Assembly: GCA_947460595.1 (NCBI GenBank)
Contig: CANHGS010000003.1
Location: forward strand, 1-64,000
Direction of reading: 5' to 3'
Length of the DNA stretch: 64,000 nucleotides
Origin: Bacteroidota bacterium
GTDB taxonomy: Bacteria > Bacteroidota > Bacteroidia > Chitinophagales > Chitinophagaceae
Shown here in pieces: positions 3,284 through 14,167 of this stretch. Below the pieces are notes generated by a model. It saw only the letters and a list, made by a program, of their open reading frames with translations, was not told the DNA's origin and searched no databases. Numbering within the stretch: position 1 is the first letter of the stretch; each line of letters begins with the position of its first letter. The position numbers were made by a program, and so were the translations under genes.

Positions 3284-5071
3284 TTAGAACTTGTAACCCC
3301 CGTCAGCAATCATTTTATCAGCAATTCTTCGTCTTGCATCCTTACTATTAAATGGTTCTACTTTGGTAAATCGTTTTAGTCCAATATGCATCATTCTAAG
3401 TTCATCGCCATCGGCAAAGCTATTGAGGGCGTCTTTTCCTGCTTTATTAATCCGGTCAGCAGCGTCATAGAGGTAAACATGCATCATATCGGCCTGAATA
3501 TTGGCGGCTTGCTCACCCTTGGTTTGGGTCAGTTTCATCACGCGTAATAAAGCAGATTCGGCATGGAATACTTCAATACTCATATCGGCAATATTCATCA
3601 GAATCTCTTGTTCTTTGTCAAGACTCATCATTAGTTTTTGAACGGCAGCACCTGCCACCATCAAAATGGCTTTCTTAAAGTTGGCAATATACTTTCGCTC
3701 TTTTGCAAAAGGAGCATCGTCATCGCTATTGAAATCAGGGATGCTCATTAATTCTTTTTGAACCGCCATGGCTGGTCCCATTAAATCTAACTTACCCTTC
3801 ATAGCGCGCTTCAGCACCATGTCAACGGTCAAGAGACGGTTGATTTCATTAGTGCCTTCGTAGATTCGGTTGATTCTGCTGTCGCGATAGGCTCTGGATA
3901 TAGCATACTCATCGCTAAAGCCATTACCGCCGTGCACTTGAACTCCTTCATCCACTACATAATCCAAAGTCTCACTACCAAATACTTTGAGTATGGCACA
4001 CTCAATAGCAAATTCTTCTGCAGCACCCAATAAAGATTCAGCAAAGGATTTACCACTGGCTTCTGCTTCGTGCTCATTATCATCAATCCATTTTGAGGTA
4101 CGATACAAGGCAGACTCACAAACCCATAAACGGGTAGCCATTTCAGCTAACTTGTATTTGATGGCACCAAATCTAGAAATAGAGATCTTGAATTGCTCAC
4201 GCGCAATAGCGTATGCTACCGTAGTGTTCAATGCATGTTTTGCTCCACCAAGTGTTGCTGCACATAATTTTAAACGACCAATATTTAAGATGTTGAAAGC
4301 AATGATATGACCCTTGCCAATTTCACCCAATACATTCTCTACAGGTACTTTACAATCTTGGAAATACAATTGCACCGTAGAAGAACCCTTGATACCCATT
4401 TTGTGTTCTTCTGGTCCTTGTGTAAAGCCTTCCATACCACGCTCTACAATGAATCCGGTAAATTTGTCTCCGTCAATTTTTGCAAAAACGGTATACACGT
4501 CTGCAAAACCACCATTGGTGATCCAGCATTTCTGACCATTTAGTATATAGTGTTTCCCATCATCGCTCAACTTGGCGGTACTCTTGGCACCTAGGGCATC
4601 TGAGCCACTATTGGGTTCCGTTAAACCATAAGCTCCCTTCCACTCACCACTGGCTAATTTTGGAATGTATTTTTCTTTCTGCGCATCGGTTCCAAAATAC
4701 AAAATGGGCAAAGAACCAATACCGGTATGTGCAGCAATAGCTACAGAAAATGAATAGCCACCACCAAGTCCTTCATTGACAATGGTAGAAGTAATAAAGT
4801 CTTTTCCCAATCCACCATATTGCTCTGGGAAAGAGGTAGACAGCAATCCTTGCTCACCAGCTTTTTGCACCAAAAAAGGCATCAGCCCTGGCTCCAATTT
4901 TTCAATCCTATCAATGATGGGAATGATTTCTGTGGTCAGGAATTGTTGGCACATGTCCATGACCATTTGCTGCTCTTCATTAAAGTCTTCCGGGATAAAA
5001 GTATCCATTGGATTACTTTCTTTGATAATCCATTCGCCGCCTTTTAAGGCTGTTTTGTTGTTGGTTTCCAT
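3284..5071 (-). CDS. Acyl-CoA dehydrogenase, long form (595 aa)
   Basis: A flavoprotein that introduces the C2-C3 double bond into acyl-CoA in beta-oxidation. Motifs in order: YGLTEPNSGSDA (about 148-159, FAD/substrate), CWITNGG (182-188), MGIKGSST (225-232), VHGGNGF (379-385) and the catalytic-base motif RIYEGTNEINR with E405. About 165 residues follow the usual ACAD core, the extended form resembling mitochondrial VLCAD and ACAD9, common in Bacteroidota. It follows the MarR gene by 34 nt on the same strand, so the two are probably one operon under MarR control. Chain-length preference is not readable. Confidence 0.93.
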   Translation of the reverse strand: METNNKTALKGGEWIIKESNPMDTFIPEDFNEEQQMVMDMCQQFLTTEIIPIIDRIEKLEPGLMPFLVQKAGEQGLLSTSFPEQYGGLGKDFITSTIVNEGLGGGYSFSVAIAAHTGIGSLPILYFGTDAQKEKYIPKLASGEWKGAYGLTEPNSGSDALGAKSTAKLSDDGKHYILNGQKCWITNGGFADVYTVFAKIDGDKFTGFIVERGMEGFTQGPEEHKMGIKGSSTVQLYFQDCKVPVENVLGEIGKGHIIAFNILNIGRLKLCAATLGGAKHALNTTVAYAIAREQFKISISRFGAIKYKLAEMATRLWVCESALYRTSKWIDDNEHEAEASGKSFAESLLGAAEEFAIECAILKVFGSETLDYVVDEGVQVHGGNGFSDEYAISRAYRDSRINRIYEGTNEINRLLTVDMVLKRAMKGKLDLMGPAMAVQKELMSIPDFNSDDDAPFAKERKYIANFKKAILMVAGAAVQKLMMSLDKEQEILMNIADMSIEVFHAESALLRVMKLTQTKGEQAANIQADMMHVYLYDAADRINKAGKDALNSFADGDELRMMHIGLKRFTKVEPFNSKDARRRIADKMIADGGYKF

Positions 5072-7142: not shown

Positions 7143-8588
7143 TTAGGCTATTAAGGACTGTTCCACTTTTGATTTATTGTCTAATAACAACAGTAATCCC
7201 AAACAGAGCCAAAAAAGACTACCCAATTTATCGGTTTCAATCATATCACTCATAAAATTGATAACCCCCAACATGGAAAGAACCAATGCAATACATAGGG
7301 CCACCTTGCTAAAAAATTGGTTTTGAAATTGGTGATAGAGAGACTGGGCTTTGAGTAGCATACCAAAATACAAGGCACAGAAAAGAACTAATCCTGGAAT
7401 GCCTTGTTCACACAAAGTGAGCAAGAAATAATTGTGTACGGTGCTATGTTCTGGATTATCACTTACCCAAGTTTGAAACCTATTTACGGTATAAGTTTTG
7501 TATTGACTATAAAAACTATTGGGGCCAAAACCGGTGATGGGTCTTTCAACAAACATATTAAAACCAGCCACCCACCTATAAAATCGCTCAGCGTTAGAAA
7601 CATCTTTTAAAGCAACTGTTGCTGCTAGATGTTCCTTAATATTGGTATGAAAAATGGTTCTGTCATGATCAGGCGCAAAACGCATATAGTTGTAATCAGT
7701 AGCTAGCCAGAGGGTAATAGACAGCAGCATTGCCACGGCTCCAATCAGCAATTGCTTCAACCATCTTTGTTGAATCACATAATACATGCCTACTCCTACC
7801 AATAAAGCCAACCATGCTCCCCTGGAATAGGCAAATACCAATGCAATTAATCCAACAATCATTCCACGCTTGATCCAAAATTTTTTTGAATTTTCTGCTG
7901 GCGTTAATTGATACATGATCCAAGCCACTGGTAGTAAACAAACCAGCATGGCTGAGTAAGTCACGTGATTTCTAAAAAAAGGAGTAATGGTTTTTTTTAC
8001 AAGTTCAAATGAAAACCCGTAAAAGCTATGCCGGATCAGCGTTTGAAGCGCTAATAAAAACATGGGAACCAACAAATAGAAAGCCATTTTACTAATCCGC
8101 GCTTGGCTATCTAATAAAATCTGTGGGAGAATTACAAAGGGAACGATGTACCAAACTCTGGCTAAAAAAAACTTATATCCCAACATTGGATTGGTGCCGT
8201 AGGATGCACTCAGAAAGCTCCATGCCATCATCAAGACTACCACAAAAAAAAGTGGGGAGCTTTTTACATATTTGGGAAAAGAAGTTGGCTGATGTAAGAA
8301 TTTCAGCACCGCCAATCCTGTAAGCAGCAACATGATAGGCTCATCCGGAAAGTCTAATCCAAGGGAAGAAGTTATTTGTAATTCAGTGGACAATGGAATC
8401 AACAATATCAGTAACCAAAACAGTTGTTCCGTTTTGTTAACACAATAATCAAAAGCAAATGGAAACAATAACCAAGCAAATGGTATCAACAAAATAGCCG
8501 GCTCTTTGAGCACAATGGCTAAAACCAGAGAAAGCATAAAAACAATGCTGGCTATGAGTTTGGACTGATATGAAAACAGCTTTGGCAT
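7143..8588 (-). CDS. O-antigen ligase / polymerase-like membrane protein (Wzy_C)
   Basis: A 481-residue polytopic inner-membrane protein with about eleven hydrophobic helices. Before the last helices is a periplasmic loop with the Wzy_C/WaaL signature: RWVAGFNMF, PITGFGPNSF and then TVHNYFLLTLCEQG, where the His aligns with the conserved ligase residue. Such proteins ligate or polymerise undecaprenyl-linked glycans. Its start overlaps the stop of the Wzz-like gene by one base (TAATG), so translation is coupled. The pair sits far from the main glycan locus and is less AT-rich. Whether it is ligase or polymerase cannot be settled from sequence. Confidence 0.82.
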   Translation of the reverse strand: MPKLFSYQSKLIASIVFMLSLVLAIVLKEPAILLIPFAWLLFPFAFDYCVNKTEQLFWLLILLIPLSTELQITSSLGLDFPDEPIMLLLTGLAVLKFLHQPTSFPKYVKSSPLFFVVVLMMAWSFLSASYGTNPMLGYKFFLARVWYIVPFVILPQILLDSQARISKMAFYLLVPMFLLALQTLIRHSFYGFSFELVKKTITPFFRNHVTYSAMLVCLLPVAWIMYQLTPAENSKKFWIKRGMIVGLIALVFAYSRGAWLALLVGVGMYYVIQQRWLKQLLIGAVAMLLSITLWLATDYNYMRFAPDHDRTIFHTNIKEHLAATVALKDVSNAERFYRWVAGFNMFVERPITGFGPNSFYSQYKTYTVNRFQTWVSDNPEHSTVHNYFLLTLCEQGIPGLVLFCALYFGMLLKAQSLYHQFQNQFFSKVALCIALVLSMLGVINFMSDMIETDKLGSLFWLCLGLLLLLDNKSKVEQSLIA

Positions 8589-9460
8589 TAAAATGCTTCT
8601 TCCCGGTGATAGACCAATAATCCCATCAGACCAAAAATTAAACTAGTCATAAAAGCTGCCAACAAAACCTCCCATTTATTGGGCTTTTCTGACTTGGCTG
8701 CGGGAACCGCTTTTTCTAACACATAGAGTGCGGGTGCATTATTATCAATAGCCAACTGAAATTCATTAGCTGCTTTTTGATAGCTATTCATTTGATCCAA
8801 TATATTCTGCAGTTTGCTTTGGTTTAATTTAGTCTCCGCTACTGATAGCCCTGTAACAGTTGCCAGTGATTTGTACTCCCCTTCCATACCAGCAATGTTG
8901 GATTGTAGTTTTGCTAAAGAATTACGGTAATTCTCTTTCCAAATAGCGGCTTCTGTTTGCTGAACAATTTCTACCAAACGGTTCACAATTTTTGCCGAAA
9001 GGTCTTTCTCTTTTGTCCAAGCAAATACTTTTAGTTGACCCAAATCCGTTTTTTGAAAAGTCAGGTCTTCTCTTAATTCCAAGACCGCTTTTCTTCTATT
9101 AATCGCTTGATCTGAATTGGTTAATTTATAATACTTCACCAATTGAAAACTATCTACTAATTGCTTATAGACCGTATCCATACTGGCAATACCAAACAAC
9201 CTATCTAAATCATCACCTGTTCCAAAATAAGAATAGAGTCCTTCAATATTGGCATTGAATAGCCTTGCCCTGTCGGCCAACGCCGGATTGGCTGGAACCA
9301 GAATGGCAAAAGACCGATAATACTTGGGAACTATAAATAAAGTGATGGTTGTAACCAACAAAGCTATGACCACAAAACCTGCCAATTGCTTCCATTTGTC
9401 TTGGAGCAGTTGTGCCGTTTTTTGTAGGTTGAATTTAGGATAAGTTGTGTTTGCTTGCAT
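8588..9460 (-). CDS. Wzz-like chain-length determinant protein
   Basis: A 290-residue protein with two membrane helices (about 27-48 and 263-282) around a periplasmic, largely helical domain, the layout of polysaccharide co-polymerase (Wzz/GNVR) proteins. There is no C-terminal tyrosine kinase domain. The segment about 165-245 is rich in heptad-like Leu/Ala spacing and probably coiled. A Pro-rich motif (ALYVLEKAVPAAKSEKPNKW) precedes the second helix, as in the family. Transcribed first, coupled to the O-antigen ligase-like gene, it probably sets chain length for that partner. A good promoter candidate lies just upstream. Confidence 0.8.
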   Translation of the reverse strand: MQANTTYPKFNLQKTAQLLQDKWKQLAGFVVIALLVTTITLFIVPKYYRSFAILVPANPALADRARLFNANIEGLYSYFGTGDDLDRLFGIASMDTVYKQLVDSFQLVKYYKLTNSDQAINRRKAVLELREDLTFQKTDLGQLKVFAWTKEKDLSAKIVNRLVEIVQQTEAAIWKENYRNSLAKLQSNIAGMEGEYKSLATVTGLSVAETKLNQSKLQNILDQMNSYQKAANEFQLAIDNNAPALYVLEKAVPAAKSEKPNKWEVLLAAFMTSLIFGLMGLLVYHREEAF

Positions 9461-9473
9461 GGTGGTGAAAATA

Positions 9474-9502
9474 CAAATTTAAGTTTTAGAACTACTGCTC
9501 AA
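9474..9502 (-). promoter_or_regulatory. Candidate Bacteroidota promoter for the Wzz-like/ligase operon
   Basis: On the minus strand, TAAATTTG (9474-9481) fits the TAnnTTTG -7 consensus exactly. A TTG lies 18 nt upstream (9500-9502). The element is 13 nt from the ATG, implying a very short leader. Confidence 0.4.
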
Positions 9503-9573
9503 GCATAGTATTAGATGGTAAAGTGTAGTTCATGACTAATTTATAACCAAATACAGACCAGTTTATGACTAGT

Positions 9574-10041
9574 TTAAGGGGCAACCACTACATTGCGGGT
9601 AAGACTTTCGTCTAAGGAAATAAAGGTCTCTGTACGCTCAATTCCTTTGATTTTCTGCAATTCATCGTGTAACACAAAACGCAATTGCTGAATGTCTTTA
9701 CACACAATTTCTGCAAACATGCTGTAGTTTCCTGTTGTATAATTTAATCTTACTATTTGGGGTATTTTCTTCAATTCCTTGGCAACACTATCATATAAGG
9801 AACTTTTTTCTAGATAGATTCCAATAAAAGCAATAACATCGTATCCTAAAGCTTTTAAATCAATAGATAGTTTTTTGCCTTTCACAATACCGGATTCCTC
9901 TAATTTCTTAATCCTAACATGAATGGTACCGCCAGACACAAAGAGCTTTTTGCCTAGGTCCGCATAGGAAATTTCGGCATCGCTCATCATTTCCTGGATA
10001 ATTTGCAGGTCTAGTTTATCTAAATTCAATTTAATGGACAT
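9574..10041 (-). CDS. Lrp/AsnC-family transcriptional regulator
   Basis: A 155-residue regulator of standard length. The helix-turn-helix covers about 6-60 (DLQIIQEMMSDAEISYADL, SGGTIHVRIKKLEESGIV) and the RAM ligand-binding and oligomerisation domain about 65-150 (VIAFIGIYLE, VRLNYTTGNYSMFAEIVC, ERTETFISL). Family members sense amino acids and form octamers that wrap DNA. It is monocistronic and diverges from the RNA gene at 10.15 kb. An AT-rich stretch of about 100 nt between them could hold binding sites, but none was recognised. Confidence 0.92.
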   Translation of the reverse strand: MSIKLNLDKLDLQIIQEMMSDAEISYADLGKKLFVSGGTIHVRIKKLEESGIVKGKKLSIDLKALGYDVIAFIGIYLEKSSLYDSVAKELKKIPQIVRLNYTTGNYSMFAEIVCKDIQQLRFVLHDELQKIKGIERTETFISLDESLTRNVVVAP

Positions 10042-10148
10042 AAATGATCTTTTTTTGAATTTTATCTATATTAATAGGCAAATTATTAAATATTTTCTAT
10101 ACTTTTTAAATTTTCTTTAAATTTTTTTAAATTTGTGATGAACGGCTG

Positions 10149-10156
10149 TATATTTG
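10149..10156 (+). promoter_or_regulatory. -7 promoter element of the tRNA-like RNA gene
   Basis: TATATTTG matches the Bacteroidota -7 consensus TAnnTTTG exactly. A very AT-rich tract precedes it. A TTTG at 10132-10135 is only 13 nt upstream, closer than the usual spacing, so the -33 element is unclear. Transcription would start near 10162, about 25 nt before the acceptor stem of the RNA. Confidence 0.6.
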
Positions 10157-10186
10157 TACTCCCAACCGGGGAAAGCTCTTATATAC

Positions 10187-10354
10187 TGTGGGGTGATGAA
10201 ACTTTTGGCAGACATGCCCTCTTGTCTCGGGGGTGAAGATCATAGGATAAACATAGCATAGAGCCGTCCCGATTTATCGGGATGACCAGGGTCGACCACT
10301 GAACTTTGTGCTATAGCTAACTACTTCGTGGAGGTTCGACCCCTCCCCCTACAG
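10187..10354 (+). ncRNA. tRNA-like structured RNA with a giant variable arm
   Basis: Hand folding gives a full class II tRNA cloverleaf. Acceptor: 10187-10193 with 10347-10353 (7 bp, one G-U). D-stem: ATG/CAT with GG at 10207-10208 in the loop. Anticodon stem: 10217-10221 with 10229-10233, loop TTGTCTC. T-arm: GGAGG-TTCGACC-CCTCC (10330-10346). Position 73 is G and CCA is not encoded. Instead of a 10-20 nt variable arm there are about 96 nt, folding as a rod: TGAAG/CTTCG, TAG/CTA, an 11-bp helix (10253-10263 with 10304-10314) and an 8-bp hairpin (10265-10284). The nominal anticodon GUC is followed by U at position 37, where tRNAs nearly always have a purine. It has its own promoter and terminator. 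tmRNA, 6S, SRP and RNase P signatures were not found. Function unknown. Confidence 0.65.
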
Positions 10355-10358
10355 CAAT

Positions 10359-10398
10359 AAAAATCTCCTATTAAATTTCAATTTATAGGAGATTTTTT
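10359..10398. terminator. Bidirectional Rho-independent terminator
   Basis: A perfect 13-bp stem (10359-10371 with 10385-10397) around a 13-nt loop, with T-runs on both strands. It ends the tRNA-like RNA on the plus strand and the aldehyde dehydrogenase on the minus strand, whose stop is at 10426. Confidence 0.9.
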
Positions 10399-10425
10399 AT
10401 TTTACGCGTTTGACTGAATCATCCT

Positions 10426-12036
10426 TTAAAAAATATAGTCTAATCGCAGATAGTTGCTTTGATGTTCTCTAACAATTGTTTGCACTATGTTTTTGTTGGC
10501 AACAGTATCTTTGGTACTGATTAACATACGAATACTAAACGCTCTTAAGGCATCATCAACGCTAAGTGTTCCCTCGGCACTATCTTTTCTTCCGTTAAAG
10601 GGGTAAGTATCTGGTCCACGCTGACATTGCGCATTGATGTTGATTCTACCTACTTGGTTGGCCAATTCGTCAATTAAATGACCAATCAATTTTGGGTTGG
10701 TTCCAAAAATACTTAGCTGTTGCCCAAAGTTGGATTGAACCACATAGTCAATTACCTCTTCAATATTTTTGTAGGATACAATTGGTACCACGGGGCCAAA
10801 CTGCTCTTCCGTATACAATCGCATTTGTGCATTTACTGGATAAAGTACCGCAGGGTAGAAGAAAGTATCATTTACTTCACCGCCATTTTCATTAATGACT
10901 GATGCACCAAACTGCTTGGCATTATTAACAAGTTCTTTTAAATAATCTGTTTTGCCAGGCTCAGGCAAAGGGGTAATCTTAACATCTTTTTCCCAGGGCA
11001 TCCCACATTTTAATTTAGCAACCCCTTCTGTGAATTTTTTAATGAAACTATCTACAACCTGCTCCTGAACAAAAATTATTTTTAGTGCGGTACATCTTTG
11101 ACCATTGTAAGAAAGTGATCCAGCTACACATTCACTAACCGCTGTTTCTAGGTCTGCATCTGGTAAAACAATGGCAGGATTCTTTGCATCTAATCCCAAA
11201 ACACTTCTCAATCTATTTGGCTTTGGATGCAATTTTTTAATGTCGCTGGCGCCTTTATTGGTTCCTATAAATGCAAAAACATCTATTTTACCAGTTTCCA
11301 TTAAAGCCCCCACTGTTTCTCTTCCCTTGCCATAAATAATATTGATGACACCTTTAGGGAAACAATTTTGAAAAACAGAGAGCAATGGTTTTATAAAAAG
11401 TACCCCATACTTGGCTGGTTTAAATACCACCGTATTTCCCATGATCAGTGCCGGGATAAGGGTTGTGAAGGTTTCATTTAATGGATAATTATAGGGGCCC
11501 ATACACAAGGCAACGCCTAATGGCACCCGCCTAACCTGAGCTATTACACCTTCTTCATTTTCAAATTTGGAATTGCGTCTATCTAAATTTTTCAATCCCT
11601 TAATGGTATCTTCAATATAAATACAAGTACGGTCAAACTCCTTTTCACTGTCAGGTAAATTTTTACCAATCTCCCACATCAACAACTTAACCACAGTAGA
11701 ACGTTGCTTTTTCATTTCTACCAGAAATTGTTCCACATGAGCAATTCTTTTGGCAATACTCATGGTTGGCCACTCCCCAGTACCATTACTATAAGCAGCT
11801 ACAGCAGCATCTAATGCTTCCAGCGATTCCTTTTGAGTTAGGAGCGGCGTTGTTCCAATAATATTTTTCTCAATACTATTGCCTGTATTGGTAGATACAG
11901 GAGAGACCACTTCATTCATTGGACCATCCCAAATTCTAAGTTCTCCATTTACTAGATACGCTCTTTGTTCAATGAAATCGTTTAGCTGCCATTCAGTAGG
12001 AATCTCAGCAACAAGAGGGAAAATATTCTTTAGCAT
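10426..12036 (-). CDS. Aldehyde dehydrogenase, GapN-like (NADP-dependent glyceraldehyde-3-phosphate dehydrogenase type)
   Basis: A 536-residue ALDH-superfamily enzyme. By resemblance to Bacteroidota GapN-like proteins it would oxidise glyceraldehyde-3-phosphate to 3-phosphoglycerate while making NADPH. Motifs: MGPYNYPLNET and VFKPAKYG (cofactor binding), FIGTNKGAS, and the nucleophile in YNGQRCTAL (C315). The general-base Glu of ALDHs lies 34 residues before the Cys; here that position is G281 within LGLDAKNP, with Asp two residues on. I believe this substitution is typical of the subfamily. Monocistronic, ending in a shared terminator. Family sure; substrate moderately sure. Confidence 0.85.
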   Translation of the reverse strand: MLKNIFPLVAEIPTEWQLNDFIEQRAYLVNGELRIWDGPMNEVVSPVSTNTGNSIEKNIIGTTPLLTQKESLEALDAAVAAYSNGTGEWPTMSIAKRIAHVEQFLVEMKKQRSTVVKLLMWEIGKNLPDSEKEFDRTCIYIEDTIKGLKNLDRRNSKFENEEGVIAQVRRVPLGVALCMGPYNYPLNETFTTLIPALIMGNTVVFKPAKYGVLFIKPLLSVFQNCFPKGVINIIYGKGRETVGALMETGKIDVFAFIGTNKGASDIKKLHPKPNRLRSVLGLDAKNPAIVLPDADLETAVSECVAGSLSYNGQRCTALKIIFVQEQVVDSFIKKFTEGVAKLKCGMPWEKDVKITPLPEPGKTDYLKELVNNAKQFGASVINENGGEVNDTFFYPAVLYPVNAQMRLYTEEQFGPVVPIVSYKNIEEVIDYVVQSNFGQQLSIFGTNPKLIGHLIDELANQVGRININAQCQRGPDTYPFNGRKDSAEGTLSVDDALRAFSIRMLISTKDTVANKNIVQTIVREHQSNYLRLDYIF

Positions 12037-12101
12037 GGTAAATTATGATTATAAATTGACTCTAATTATGAGATAAACATTAAATATGGGGTCTTTGTTC
12101 G

Positions 12102-12135
12102 CAACTATAGCATTTAATGAGTTTCCAACTATAGC
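12102..12135. repeat. Two direct repeats CAACTATAGC
   Basis: Two identical 10-mers at 12102-12111 and 12126-12135, start to start 24 bases apart. They lie between the divergent aldehyde dehydrogenase and histidine kinase genes. The spacing is slightly over two helical turns, so a regulator could bind both; this is inference. Confidence 0.5.
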
Positions 12136-12157
12136 TATCCCTAACATTATGATAACC

Positions 12158-12181
12158 TTTGAAATTTGTAACAATTTCAAA
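12158..12181. repeat. 9-bp inverted repeat in a divergent promoter region
   Basis: TTTGAAATT and its exact complement AATTTCAAA flank TGTAAC, 48 bases before the histidine kinase start. No T-run follows, so an operator is more likely than a terminator. Confidence 0.45.
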
Positions 12182-12229
12182 TGAACATGTCACAGTTTGC
12201 TATAAAAGACTATTTACCTTGAACAAGGA

Positions 12230-14167
12230 GTGTCAATAACCTCCTTCCATATGCTTAAGACAGACGAACATTTTAATTACGATGTACTTTCCGCACTCAG
12301 TTCGTTGATAGCTGTTATAGACAAAACAGGCAACATTATAGCTATAAATAATAATTGGGATGAATTTGCTAATTTGAATGGGACAAAGAATCTGAAACTT
12401 ACTTCTATTGGCAGTAATTATTTTTCAGCTTGTAATAACGCAATAAAATTCGGAGATAGTATTGCCGCAGAAACAATGACAGGTATTATTGCTGTTTTTG
12501 AAAAGAAAATAAAAGTCTTTGAACTAGAATACCCATGTAATACTGCAACAGAAAAGAAATGGTACCTGCTTCATGTAATGCTATTTGGGAAAGAAAGTTC
12601 TAGAGTGTTAATATCACACCAAGACATCACAACCAGAAAAAAAAATGAGGATTTCCTTATAGCTTCTGAAATTAGGTACCGTCGCATATTTGAAGCGGCC
12701 AAAGACGGTATTATCATTCTCAATGAAAGTTCCGGAGAGATCATTGATGTTAACCCTTTTCTAATAAATTTATTGGGTTATACTTTTGAAGAATTTTTGG
12801 GGAGACAACTTTGGGAAATTGGATTATTCAAAGATATTGAAGAATCAAAAAAAGCATTTGAAGAACTGAAGAAAAACAAGTACATCCGATATGAAGATAT
12901 GCCACTTAAAACTAAAAGTGGTCAAATCCGGAATGTGGAATTTGTTAGTAATGTTTACGAGGAGAATAATAAAAATGTGATTCAGTGTAATGTTCGGGAC
13001 ATTACCGATAAGGTAAATACAAATAACCGATTAAGGGAAAATGAACAGAAATTAAGGTTGCTGAATACCTTACTTTTAGAAGAAACTGAAAGACTAAACG
13101 ATGCACAATCAATAGCTAAAATTGGAAACTGGGATTTGGGTATCCCCGATTATAAGGTAACATGGTCCAGGGAAGTATATAAAATATTTGAAGCTGATCA
13201 GGAAACATTCATTCCGTCTGTAGAAATATTTTTTAAGCATCTACATCCAGATGATATTGAGAAAGTAAATAATGCTTTTAAAGAATCCTATATAAGTCAA
13301 AAGCTAAACTCGGTGGAACATCGGGTAATTACTTCAAATAAGGGGACAATATACATATTAGAAAATTGGAACGTGATTTTAGATGAAAAAGGAAATCCAA
13401 TTCGCATTAATGGTACCTGTCAAGATATTACAGAACTAAAAAAGCTAGAACATGAATTGTTAGAAATGATTAGGCAATTACAAATTAAGAACAATGACCT
13501 AAATCAATTTGCTTACATAGTATCTCATAATTTACGTTCTCATATTGCCAAAATTCAAGGATTAATGTATCTATTTCAAAAAGAAATTGATAGTAAACCC
13601 AATAATCCAGAACTATTAAAAATTATTCTACATGAAGTAAATGGTTTAGACATTGTTATTCGGGATCTCAATAAAATTCTTTCCATACAAGATTCTGGAA
13701 ATAAATCAATGGAACTTGTTTTATTTGAAACAATTTTAGAACAGATAGAACAATCATTGTCAGTTCAAATGGAAGAATCAAAAGCATTGATTAATTCCAA
13801 TTTCTCCAATTCTCCTAAACTGGTTACAATAAAAAGTTACTGTTACAGTATCTTACAAAACCTCCTATCTAATGCCATTAAATATCGTTCTCCCAATCGT
13901 CCACTACAAATTCTCATCCAAACCAACATAGAAGGTTCATTTGTTTGCCTCTCCTTTAAGGACAATGGAATGGGTATTGATTTAATCAAGAATAGCAATA
14001 AAATATTTGGATTGTATAAAAGATTTCATGGAAATCTAATTCCTGGAAGAGGAATTGGGTTAAATCTTATCAAAATACAAATTGAATCACTAGGTGGCAG
14101 AGTAGAAGTTCAAAGCACCGTTGATGTAGGAACGGAGTTCAAAATATTTTTTCCACTAGTAAATTAA
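12230..14167 (+). CDS. Soluble PAS-domain sensor histidine kinase
   Basis: A 645-residue kinase without membrane helices, so probably cytosolic. Three PAS-type regions: about 20-130 (VIDKTGNIIAINNNW), 145-265 (YRRIFEAAKDGIIIL, with PAC) and 285-405 (PAS_3 type, AKIGNWDLG, HLHPDDIEK). The DHp H-box is YIVSHNLRSH with H433; the ATPase has N548 in SNAIKY, DNGMGID and GRGIGLNL. There is no receiver domain or adjacent response regulator, so the partner is elsewhere. The frame starts with GTG at 12230; an ATG at 12251 is an alternative, and the AAGGAG beside the GTG is too close to be its ribosome site. Confidence 0.9.
   Translation: MSITSFHMLKTDEHFNYDVLSALSSLIAVIDKTGNIIAINNNWDEFANLNGTKNLKLTSIGSNYFSACNNAIKFGDSIAAETMTGIIAVFEKKIKVFELEYPCNTATEKKWYLLHVMLFGKESSRVLISHQDITTRKKNEDFLIASEIRYRRIFEAAKDGIIILNESSGEIIDVNPFLINLLGYTFEEFLGRQLWEIGLFKDIEESKKAFEELKKNKYIRYEDMPLKTKSGQIRNVEFVSNVYEENNKNVIQCNVRDITDKVNTNNRLRENEQKLRLLNTLLLEETERLNDAQSIAKIGNWDLGIPDYKVTWSREVYKIFEADQETFIPSVEIFFKHLHPDDIEKVNNAFKESYISQKLNSVEHRVITSNKGTIYILENWNVILDEKGNPIRINGTCQDITELKKLEHELLEMIRQLQIKNNDLNQFAYIVSHNLRSHIAKIQGLMYLFQKEIDSKPNNPELLKIILHEVNGLDIVIRDLNKILSIQDSGNKSMELVLFETILEQIEQSLSVQMEESKALINSNFSNSPKLVTIKSYCYSILQNLLSNAIKYRSPNRPLQILIQTNIEGSFVCLSFKDNGMGIDLIKNSNKIFGLYKRFHGNLIPGRGIGLNLIKIQIESLGGRVEVQSTVDVGTEFKIFFPLVN

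Follow-up and report, generated by a model that had tools for sequence, protein, structure and literature searches.

The window analysed here, a stretch of 64,000 nucleotides of a Bacteroidota genome, encodes a tRNA-like RNA divergent from a gene for an AsnC-like regulator (Table 1). Read from the sequence, the RNA folds as a class II tRNA with U1 at 10187, an acceptor stem of UGUGGGG/CCCUACA, the anticodon GUC at 10224-10226, a U at position 37 and a 96-nt variable region at 10234-10329 on the forward strand. A covariance model matches 10186-10354 with an E-value of 3.8e-48, the window RNA being one of the seeds of the model. The upstream element at 10149-10156, which we take to be a Bacteroidota-type promoter element, has counterparts in the relatives described below: TAnnTTTG lies within 160 nt upstream in 94 of 142, against a mean of 18.3 over 50 letter shuffles, and in 66 of 142 it is accompanied by TTG 17-23 nt further up (shuffles, 1.9). 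Downstream, a run of at least five T occurs within 90 nt in 115 of 142 relatives, a raw count without shuffle control. The 250-nt stretch, terminator included, folds at -82.5 kcal/mol (z = -4.78), and none of 200 shuffles was as stable. The initial annotation, which had seen here a stand-alone tRNA-like RNA between a TAnnTTTG element and a terminator, is upheld by the sequence and by this fold. It had also described the variable arm as 5-bp, 3-bp and 11-bp helices with an 8-bp hairpin; these helices are seen, except that the base stem has 4 bp (10235-10238/10324-10327) instead of 5 and is followed by a 4-nt bulge before the 3-bp helix.

Table 1. Features of the tRNA-like RNA locus and its divergent neighbour (window coordinates).
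Feature	Position	Strand	Remarks and basis
Divergent AsnC-like regulator, 155 aa	9574..10041	-	NCBIfam AsnC, PDB match, adjacency
TAnnTTTG promoter element, TATATTTG	10149..10156	+	Fits TAnnTTTG; sequence
Mature tRNA-like RNA, U1 to G73	10187..10354	+	168 nt before CCA addition; predicted ends; sequence, covariance model, covariation
Acceptor stem, 5' side, with U1-A72 and G2-C71	10187..10193	+	Both pairs in 142/142; lower acceptor pairs covary
D-arm, 3-bp stem AUG/CAU, loop with GGCA	10196..10215	+	Sequence; GGCA in 132/142 relatives
Anticodon arm CCCUC-UUGUCUC-GGGGG, loop UUGUCUC	10217..10233	+	GUC in 139/142 by alignment column
Long variable arm: base stem, 3-bp helix, internal loop, 11-bp helix, three-way top	10235..10327	+	Fold, covariation
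Variable-length hairpin at arm top, 8 bp here	10265..10284	+	Fold
Conserved bulged hairpin with UNGACCAC, typical of long forms	10287..10301	+	Fold; relatives
T-arm GGAGG-UUCGACC-CCUCC, loop UUCGACC	10330..10346	+	Sequence, covariation
Acceptor stem, 3' side, and discriminator G73 (10354)	10347..10354	+	G73 in 142/142; CCA not encoded
Intrinsic terminator-like hairpin with T-run	about 10359..10398	+	Fold of 250-nt stretch

The structure is supported by covariation at two depths. Within the genus, 24 distinct sequences show changes on both sides in 11 of 44 pairs, which 0 of 500 shuffles reach, while one of five measures (further pair types) stays within the shuffles (393/500). Across the class, 100 distinct sequences show such changes in 34 of 43 pairs with 96.2% of cells paired, and 0 of 500 shuffles compare on all five measures; this alignment was fitted to the structure and therefore leans towards it, but the MAFFT alignment of the genus, which was not structure-fitted, agrees on four of the five. 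Compensatory changes are thus abundant among homologues, and the complete class II cloverleaf with a long variable arm that had been read from the window alone is borne out. A chance fold is ruled out by covariation together with conservation, and it is practically certain that the window RNA and its relatives form a real RNA family. An intron-bearing tRNA, one of the possibilities raised initially, finds no support: conservation and covariation extend to the arm, and the relatives found are all at least 108 nt long, none of them with an ordinary short arm.

The family is widespread in the Bacteroidota. With blastn at E <= 1, 43 of 60 relatives gave a match, in some cases a trivial one, and 29 of 37 genus members, the window genome included, matched better than 1e-18. 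A covariance model built from 25 genus sequences was searched against 396 genomes of the order and found matches at E <= 0.01 in 245, which represent 99 of 164 genera; at least the matches in G239, G047 and G140 are weak, perhaps no more than ordinary tRNAs. A second model from 71 wider sequences gave matches in 219 of 325 genomes of the class at the same threshold, many of them of ordinary tRNA length (about 83 nt); counted strictly, at better than 1e-15, 56 of the 325 remain, and every one of these matches exceeds 105 nt. When 84,980 species genomes were scanned with an exact pattern, at least 119 stretches were returned, and the 80 matches listed are all Bacteroidota by title, including Chitinophaga, Ferruginibacter, Sediminibacterium, Niastella, Segetibacter, Saprospiraceae, Dyadobacter, Cyclobacterium, Algoriphagus, Emticicia, Runella and Flammeovirga, some being labelled only to phylum or class. 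An origin from a phage or plasmid was rejected, the matches being only short and weak. For position counts, 142 distinct relatives were pooled from alignments A1, A3 and A4, one ordinary tRNA match (L178:6648) being excluded; they were found with genus-seeded models, so conserved positions are somewhat favoured in them. A1 comes from the first 30 loci, of which L001 is the window itself, without L010, L024 and L029 (cut), L030 (partial match) and L028 (arm shortened); A3 kept matches stronger than E 1e-21, and A5 those stronger than E 1e-18.

The 142 sequences range from 108 to 200 nt with a median of 158. All share the tRNA body, and the arm opens with a base stem that covaries, followed by another short helix and an internal loop, conserved as GGGAUAAA/GCUAA in most forms. 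Long forms continue with the 11-bp helix, the variable hairpin and the bulged hairpin with UNGACCAC; this motif is present in 92 of 103 forms of at least 140 nt, and short forms are without its hairpin. Tandem copies are frequent among the loci read, with three in L178 and two each in L116 and L126. Those of L178 (4094-4463, reverse strand) are head-to-tail short forms of 110 nt, two of them identical. L115 (3652-3994, reverse strand) has two additional copies in tandem in which the arm and a terminator-like hairpin are retained but the acceptor, D- and T-parts are altered. L122 has near-identical copies of the arm region at 3503-3570 and 3821-3888 (reverse strand), without an intact tRNA body and inside a larger repeat. 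In the genus member L028 (1547-1663), about 50 nt of the arm are missing, leaving a 117-nt form that reflects either a deletion or an assembly fault.

Standard tools do not recognize the RNA where they were tried. ARAGORN reported no tRNA in the window, and the relatives of the RNA at 22 loci were likewise passed over. Rfam 15 gave no match at gathering score for window positions 8000-13000, since the weak matches near the locus stay below that level and lie on the opposite strand or at other places; with 15 relatives, the only matches at gathering score were five ordinary tRNAs of L178. The Rfam check proposed in the initial annotation therefore leaves the RNA without a known family in the window part and the 15 relatives searched. 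RF00005 found 34 tRNAs above its cut-off over the whole genome, the RNA locus not among them; an ordinary tRNA was rejected on this ground and on the drift of the decoding positions. A tmRNA was rejected as well, since the only RF00023 match above cut-off is the tmRNA of the genome on contig C28, and the RNA locus is absent from all 13 matches. Among the open PMC texts listed, judged by title and the start of the abstract, none describes this RNA.

The nucleotides that are kept in the RNA are those expected to be read by two enzymes. U1-A72, G2-C71 and G73 are each present in 142 of 142 relatives. The anticodon GUC is found in 139 of 142 by alignment column (a loop search favouring GUC gave 140), with L190, L200 and the gapped L199 as the exceptions, and C38 follows in 138 of these 139, so that G73, G34, U35, C36 and C38 are all present in the window RNA and in 138 of the 142 relatives. 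These five are the strong aspartate determinants named in passages of one source, which also give the pair 1-72 (G-C) and G2-C71 as helpers for bacterial AspRS, U1-A72 as the feature that lets the bacterial amidotransferase act on Asp-tRNA-Asn, and G1-C72 with U20a as amidation antideterminants in tRNA-Asp (PMC9976931). The G1-C72 helper for AspRS is absent from the RNA, its place being taken by U1-A72 throughout. The D-loop has GGCA in 132 of 142 relatives and other letters in ten, with no U20a (20a in our own numbering); the tRNA-Asn of the genome carries U20a in the same numbering. Because of U1-A72, G73, GUC, C38 and the lack of U20a, the RNA bears the strong marks for AspRS together with the mark for amidation, and neither antideterminant. 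The elbow of the cloverleaf is also kept (GG in the D-loop, UUCGA in the T-loop), and the stems covary.

The positions that serve decoding behave differently. Among the 139 GUC-bearing sequences, position 33 is U in 120, C in 11 and G in eight (non-U in 19/139), and position 37 is U in 124, C in eight, G in six and A in one (non-purine in 132/139). By contrast, U33 and a purine at position 37 occur in 29 of 29 tRNAs of the same genome, these being the ones among the loci examined, with repeats removed, out of the 34 above the cut-off. A normal tRNA-Asp is present in the window genome. The early judgement that this is not a normal tRNA was therefore sound: position 37 is a pyrimidine in most relatives, position 33 drifts, and neither ARAGORN nor RF00005 recognizes the RNA. 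As far as sequence can tell, the RNA is one that carries marks for AspRS and GatCAB while the requirements of decoding are not kept. In L190 (4072-4187, reverse strand) the loop CUCUCUC replaces the GUC loop; its genome, G612, has AsnA, and selection may be relaxed there.

The protein encoded by the divergent gene scores 156 bits with the NCBIfam AsnC model against 55.6 for Lrp, short of the AsnC equivalog cut-off of 227, and its best PDB match is E. coli AsnC (2cg4, 112.6 bits; Lrp, 45.4). A gene of the same family lies directly upstream on the opposite strand at 67 of 101 loci, nearly always 91-252 bp away, and this adjacency spans many families with otherwise unlike surroundings; the other 34 loci have no AsnC-like neighbour in the stretch examined. 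All 39 neighbours scanned match the AsnC model with the lowest best E-value, and all also match six other models of the Lrp/AsnC family with weaker best E-values. A conserved operon partner was sought and rejected, as no other neighbour family occurs at more than 12 of the 101 loci (most families are unannotated). E. coli AsnC, according to passages of PMC8707732, activates asnA, responds to asparagine and is divergent from its target. At 13 asnA/asnB loci, no AsnC-like gene was found within about 4 kb, which is unhelpful to the account proposed below.

The distribution of the RNA was compared with that of gatB, the GatCAB gene searched, in a non-random panel of 80 genomes picked before the gatB search, with G475 left out. 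The RNA was scored as present in 40 genomes with a match better than E 1e-15 and as absent in 40 with no match or with matches of ordinary tRNA length only; 20 of the latter are the listed non-matching genomes of the order search, all from the family of the window. AsnRS is encoded in 80 of 80 genomes. gatB is present in 40 of 40 genomes with the RNA and in 12 of 40 without it. GlnRS was found in 29 genomes of the first group, G574 being counted as lacking it since its match is fragmentary, and in 31 of the second. Where GlnRS and AsnRS are both present GatCAB is not needed for translation, and in this subset gatB accompanies the RNA in 29 of 29 genomes against 3 of 31 without the RNA (Fisher p 4e-14, genomes taken as independent). 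Tallied by hand by genus, with no phylogeny beyond that level, the figures are 17 of 17 against 3 of 22 (p 2.6e-8). A broader model run on the 40 RNA-lacking genomes gave, among the matches listed, best first, only sequences of 81-89 nt and at most 60.3 bits; in the 30 genomes for which a locus was examined, the top match was always a tRNA-Leu, and no hidden divergent copy of the RNA was found with this model in the 12 that have gatB. AsnRS, GlnRS and gatB occur without the RNA in G176, G405 and G439. At locus L208 of G439 (contig C19, 2407-7124), a gatA-like amidase gene (465 aa) is followed by a gene for a 1106-aa protein that joins GatB domains to a class II synthetase which has anticodon-binding and GAD domains; G439 has AsnRS, GlnRS and a second AspRS-like match elsewhere, and no tRNA-like RNA was found in it. 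To judge from its domains, this GatB-AspRS protein looks like a natural fusion for the conversion of Asp to Asn.

Asparagine synthetases show the opposite tendency. AsnA or an E. coli-type AsnB is present in 2 of 40 genomes with the RNA and in 10 of 40 without it (Fisher p 0.025, genomes taken as independent), and in the GlnRS subset in 0 of 29 and 10 of 31, respectively (p 8.5e-4). The query for E. coli-type AsnB came from the RNA-lacking panel genome G467, which is itself one of the five matches. In six genomes from which both the RNA and gatB are absent, although relatives from the genus or family carry the RNA, one of these two enzymes is found: G247 and G305 (genus g27), G309 and G323 (g50), G428 (g31) and G467 (family f61). 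Within the family of the window, 6 of the 20 RNA-lacking genomes have one of the two enzymes and 14 have neither. Both enzymes, the RNA and gatB are all missing from G443 (g179) and from G117, G267 and G420 (g28), whose genera include members with the RNA, and 21 of the 31 RNA-lacking genomes with GlnRS have neither enzyme. The RNA and AsnA occur together in G612 and G729. The broad AsnB family is uninformative as a marker, with matches in 70 of 80 genomes. At least one such protein, which may be a true asparagine synthetase, is found in 37 of 40 genomes with the RNA, and the RNA is therefore rarely the sole candidate for asparagine synthesis; genomes without AsnA and without any AsnB-family match are only G131, G429 and G741 among those with the RNA, and five (G070, G251, G277, G420 and G462) among those without. 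In the window genome, the only AsnB-family match is a 967-aa protein encoded on the contig of the window but outside the window (L210, 956-3859, reverse strand); its N-terminal part is asparagine-synthase-like, its C-terminal part appears by eye to be glycosyltransferase-like, and the adjacent gene looks Wzc-like.

We propose that the RNA takes no part in decoding and is a tRNA dedicated to tRNA-dependent asparagine synthesis, in which it would be the covalent carrier, with free asparagine as the purpose, and we put the probability of this reading at roughly 0.65. That the RNA is linked to AspRS and GatCAB we consider likely, judging from its determinants and the distribution of gatB. The RNA lies behind a putative promoter of its own and divergent from the AsnC-like gene, whose product would control its transcription. 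The tRNA shape and the uncoded CCA suggest that it would be trimmed and receive CCA as any tRNA does. Ordinary AspRS would then charge it with aspartate through G34-U35-C36-C38, G73 and G2-C71, all of which the RNA has, and GatCAB would convert Asp-RNA to Asn-RNA because the 1-72 pair is U-A and U20a is absent, in keeping with the co-occurrence of gatB. Asparagine would finally be released, or used from the RNA, and so supply free asparagine to AsnRS. The drift at position 33, the pyrimidine at 37 and the long arm would stop the Asn-charged RNA from misreading Asp codons. In its widest form, namely that many Bacteroidota have taken a tRNA paralogue out of translation, left it only the marks for AspRS and GatCAB, and placed it as a carrier for free asparagine in a loop with AsnC, we hold the account to be somewhat better than an even bet. 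The whole is not rated higher because most RNA-lacking genomes have neither AsnA nor E. coli-type AsnB.

Four other explanations have to be weighed. The charged and amidated RNA might be a donor of Asn or Asp for a non-ribosomal transferase that recognizes the long arm, for example in making a cell-envelope or peptide product. Such a donor would account for arm motifs that AspRS and GatCAB should not need (UNGACCAC in 92 of 103 long forms, and GGGAUAAA/GCUAA), and AsnB-family proteins are present in 37 of 40 genomes with the RNA; yet the UNGACCAC hairpin is missing from short forms, apart from the AsnC-like gene no neighbour family exceeds 12 of 101 loci (most being unannotated), and several genomes with AsnA or E. 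coli-type AsnB lack the RNA and gatB together, which fits free asparagine as the product. We therefore regard a donor role as rather unlikely. A regulatory RNA, acting as a competitor for AspRS or GatCAB or signalling the state of Asp/Asn charging to AsnC or some other partner, would suit the AsnC-like gene adjoining 67 of 101 loci and an anticodon loop like that of tRNA-Asp. A decoy for AspRS only, however, would need neither U1-A72 in every copy nor the co-occurrence with gatB, and no conserved target gene lies beside the RNA, so that we judge regulation to be unlikely. The initial annotation came closest where it suggested a non-canonical tRNA or one acting on an aminoacyl-tRNA synthetase, whereas its tRNA mimic and Y-RNA-like scaffold are less favoured, because U1-A72 in all aligned relatives, the AsnC-like neighbour and the co-occurrence with gatB, none of which it had noted, point more to asparagine synthesis.

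It is also conceivable that a non-discriminating AspRS produces Asp-tRNA(Asn), that GatCAB is retained for its amidation, and that the RNA is only a co-inherited passenger. According to passages of PMC4206432, the AspRS of Bdellovibrio charges tRNA-Asn and, with GatCAB, rescues an asparagine auxotroph of E. coli, and the same is proposed there for further genera, among them Bacteroidetes, in which GatCAB occurs beside AsnRS and GlnRS. G176, G405 and G439, where gatB is present without the RNA, could be such cases. The passenger reading would leave unexplained why determinants for AspRS and for amidation meet on one conserved RNA and why gatB is found in 29 of 29 against 3 of 31 genomes, and the tRNA-Asn of the window genome has U20a, described in passages of PMC9976931 as an antideterminant for tRNA-Asp. 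A mere passenger is thus improbable to our minds. That the RNA decodes Asp codons or serves a recoding event we find scarcely credible: the anticodon GUC and the complete tRNA fold would allow it, but position 33 is non-U in 19 of 139 and position 37 non-purine in 132 of 139, against 29 of 29 canonical tRNAs of the genome itself, and a normal tRNA-Asp is already there.

If the carrier reading is true, the RNA would be a tRNA turned metabolic carrier, an RNA cofactor dedicated to the synthesis of an amino acid, in a widespread family that Rfam 15 and ARAGORN did not report where they were tried. It would explain tRNA-dependent asparagine synthesis alongside a discriminating AspRS, AsnRS and GlnRS. 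It also predicts a route to asparagine that pathway annotation would miss, so that some Bacteroidota called asparagine auxotrophs may not be. Passages of PMC4206432 describe as a puzzle that some bacteria, Bacteroidetes included, keep GatCAB beside AsnRS and GlnRS, and the RNA would offer an answer.

Compared with tRNA-Asp (GUC), the RNA shares G34, U35, C36, C38, G73, G2-C71 and the start of the T-loop, but it has a class II long arm, U1-A72 for G1-C72, mostly a pyrimidine at position 37, a variable position 33, and GGCA instead of GGUU in the D-loop. Like tmRNA it joins a tRNA-like domain to a long extra RNA part; unlike tmRNA it has its insert in the variable region and retains an anticodon arm, and the tmRNA of the genome is separate. 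The non-translational tRNA-Gly of Staphylococcus, a glycine donor for the cell wall that is of ordinary size and involves no amidation, is likewise a tRNA reserved for a task outside translation. In E. coli asnC-asnA, as described in passages of PMC8707732, an AsnC-type regulator is also divergent from the gene for a component of asparagine synthesis, although the partner of the regulator here is an RNA and not an enzyme. Another close counterpart is the tRNA-dependent asparagine synthesis of Deinococcus, Thermus and Bdellovibrio, in which a non-discriminating AspRS and GatCAB act on tRNA-Asn. The two predicted enzymes, U1-A72 and the puzzling presence of GatCAB beside AsnRS and GlnRS (passages of PMC4206432) would be the same; the difference is that the RNA would be a separate carrier with an Asp anticodon, not built for decoding. 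Since it has that anticodon, an ordinary discriminating AspRS could charge it, and a separate carrier would thus remove the need for a non-discriminating AspRS.
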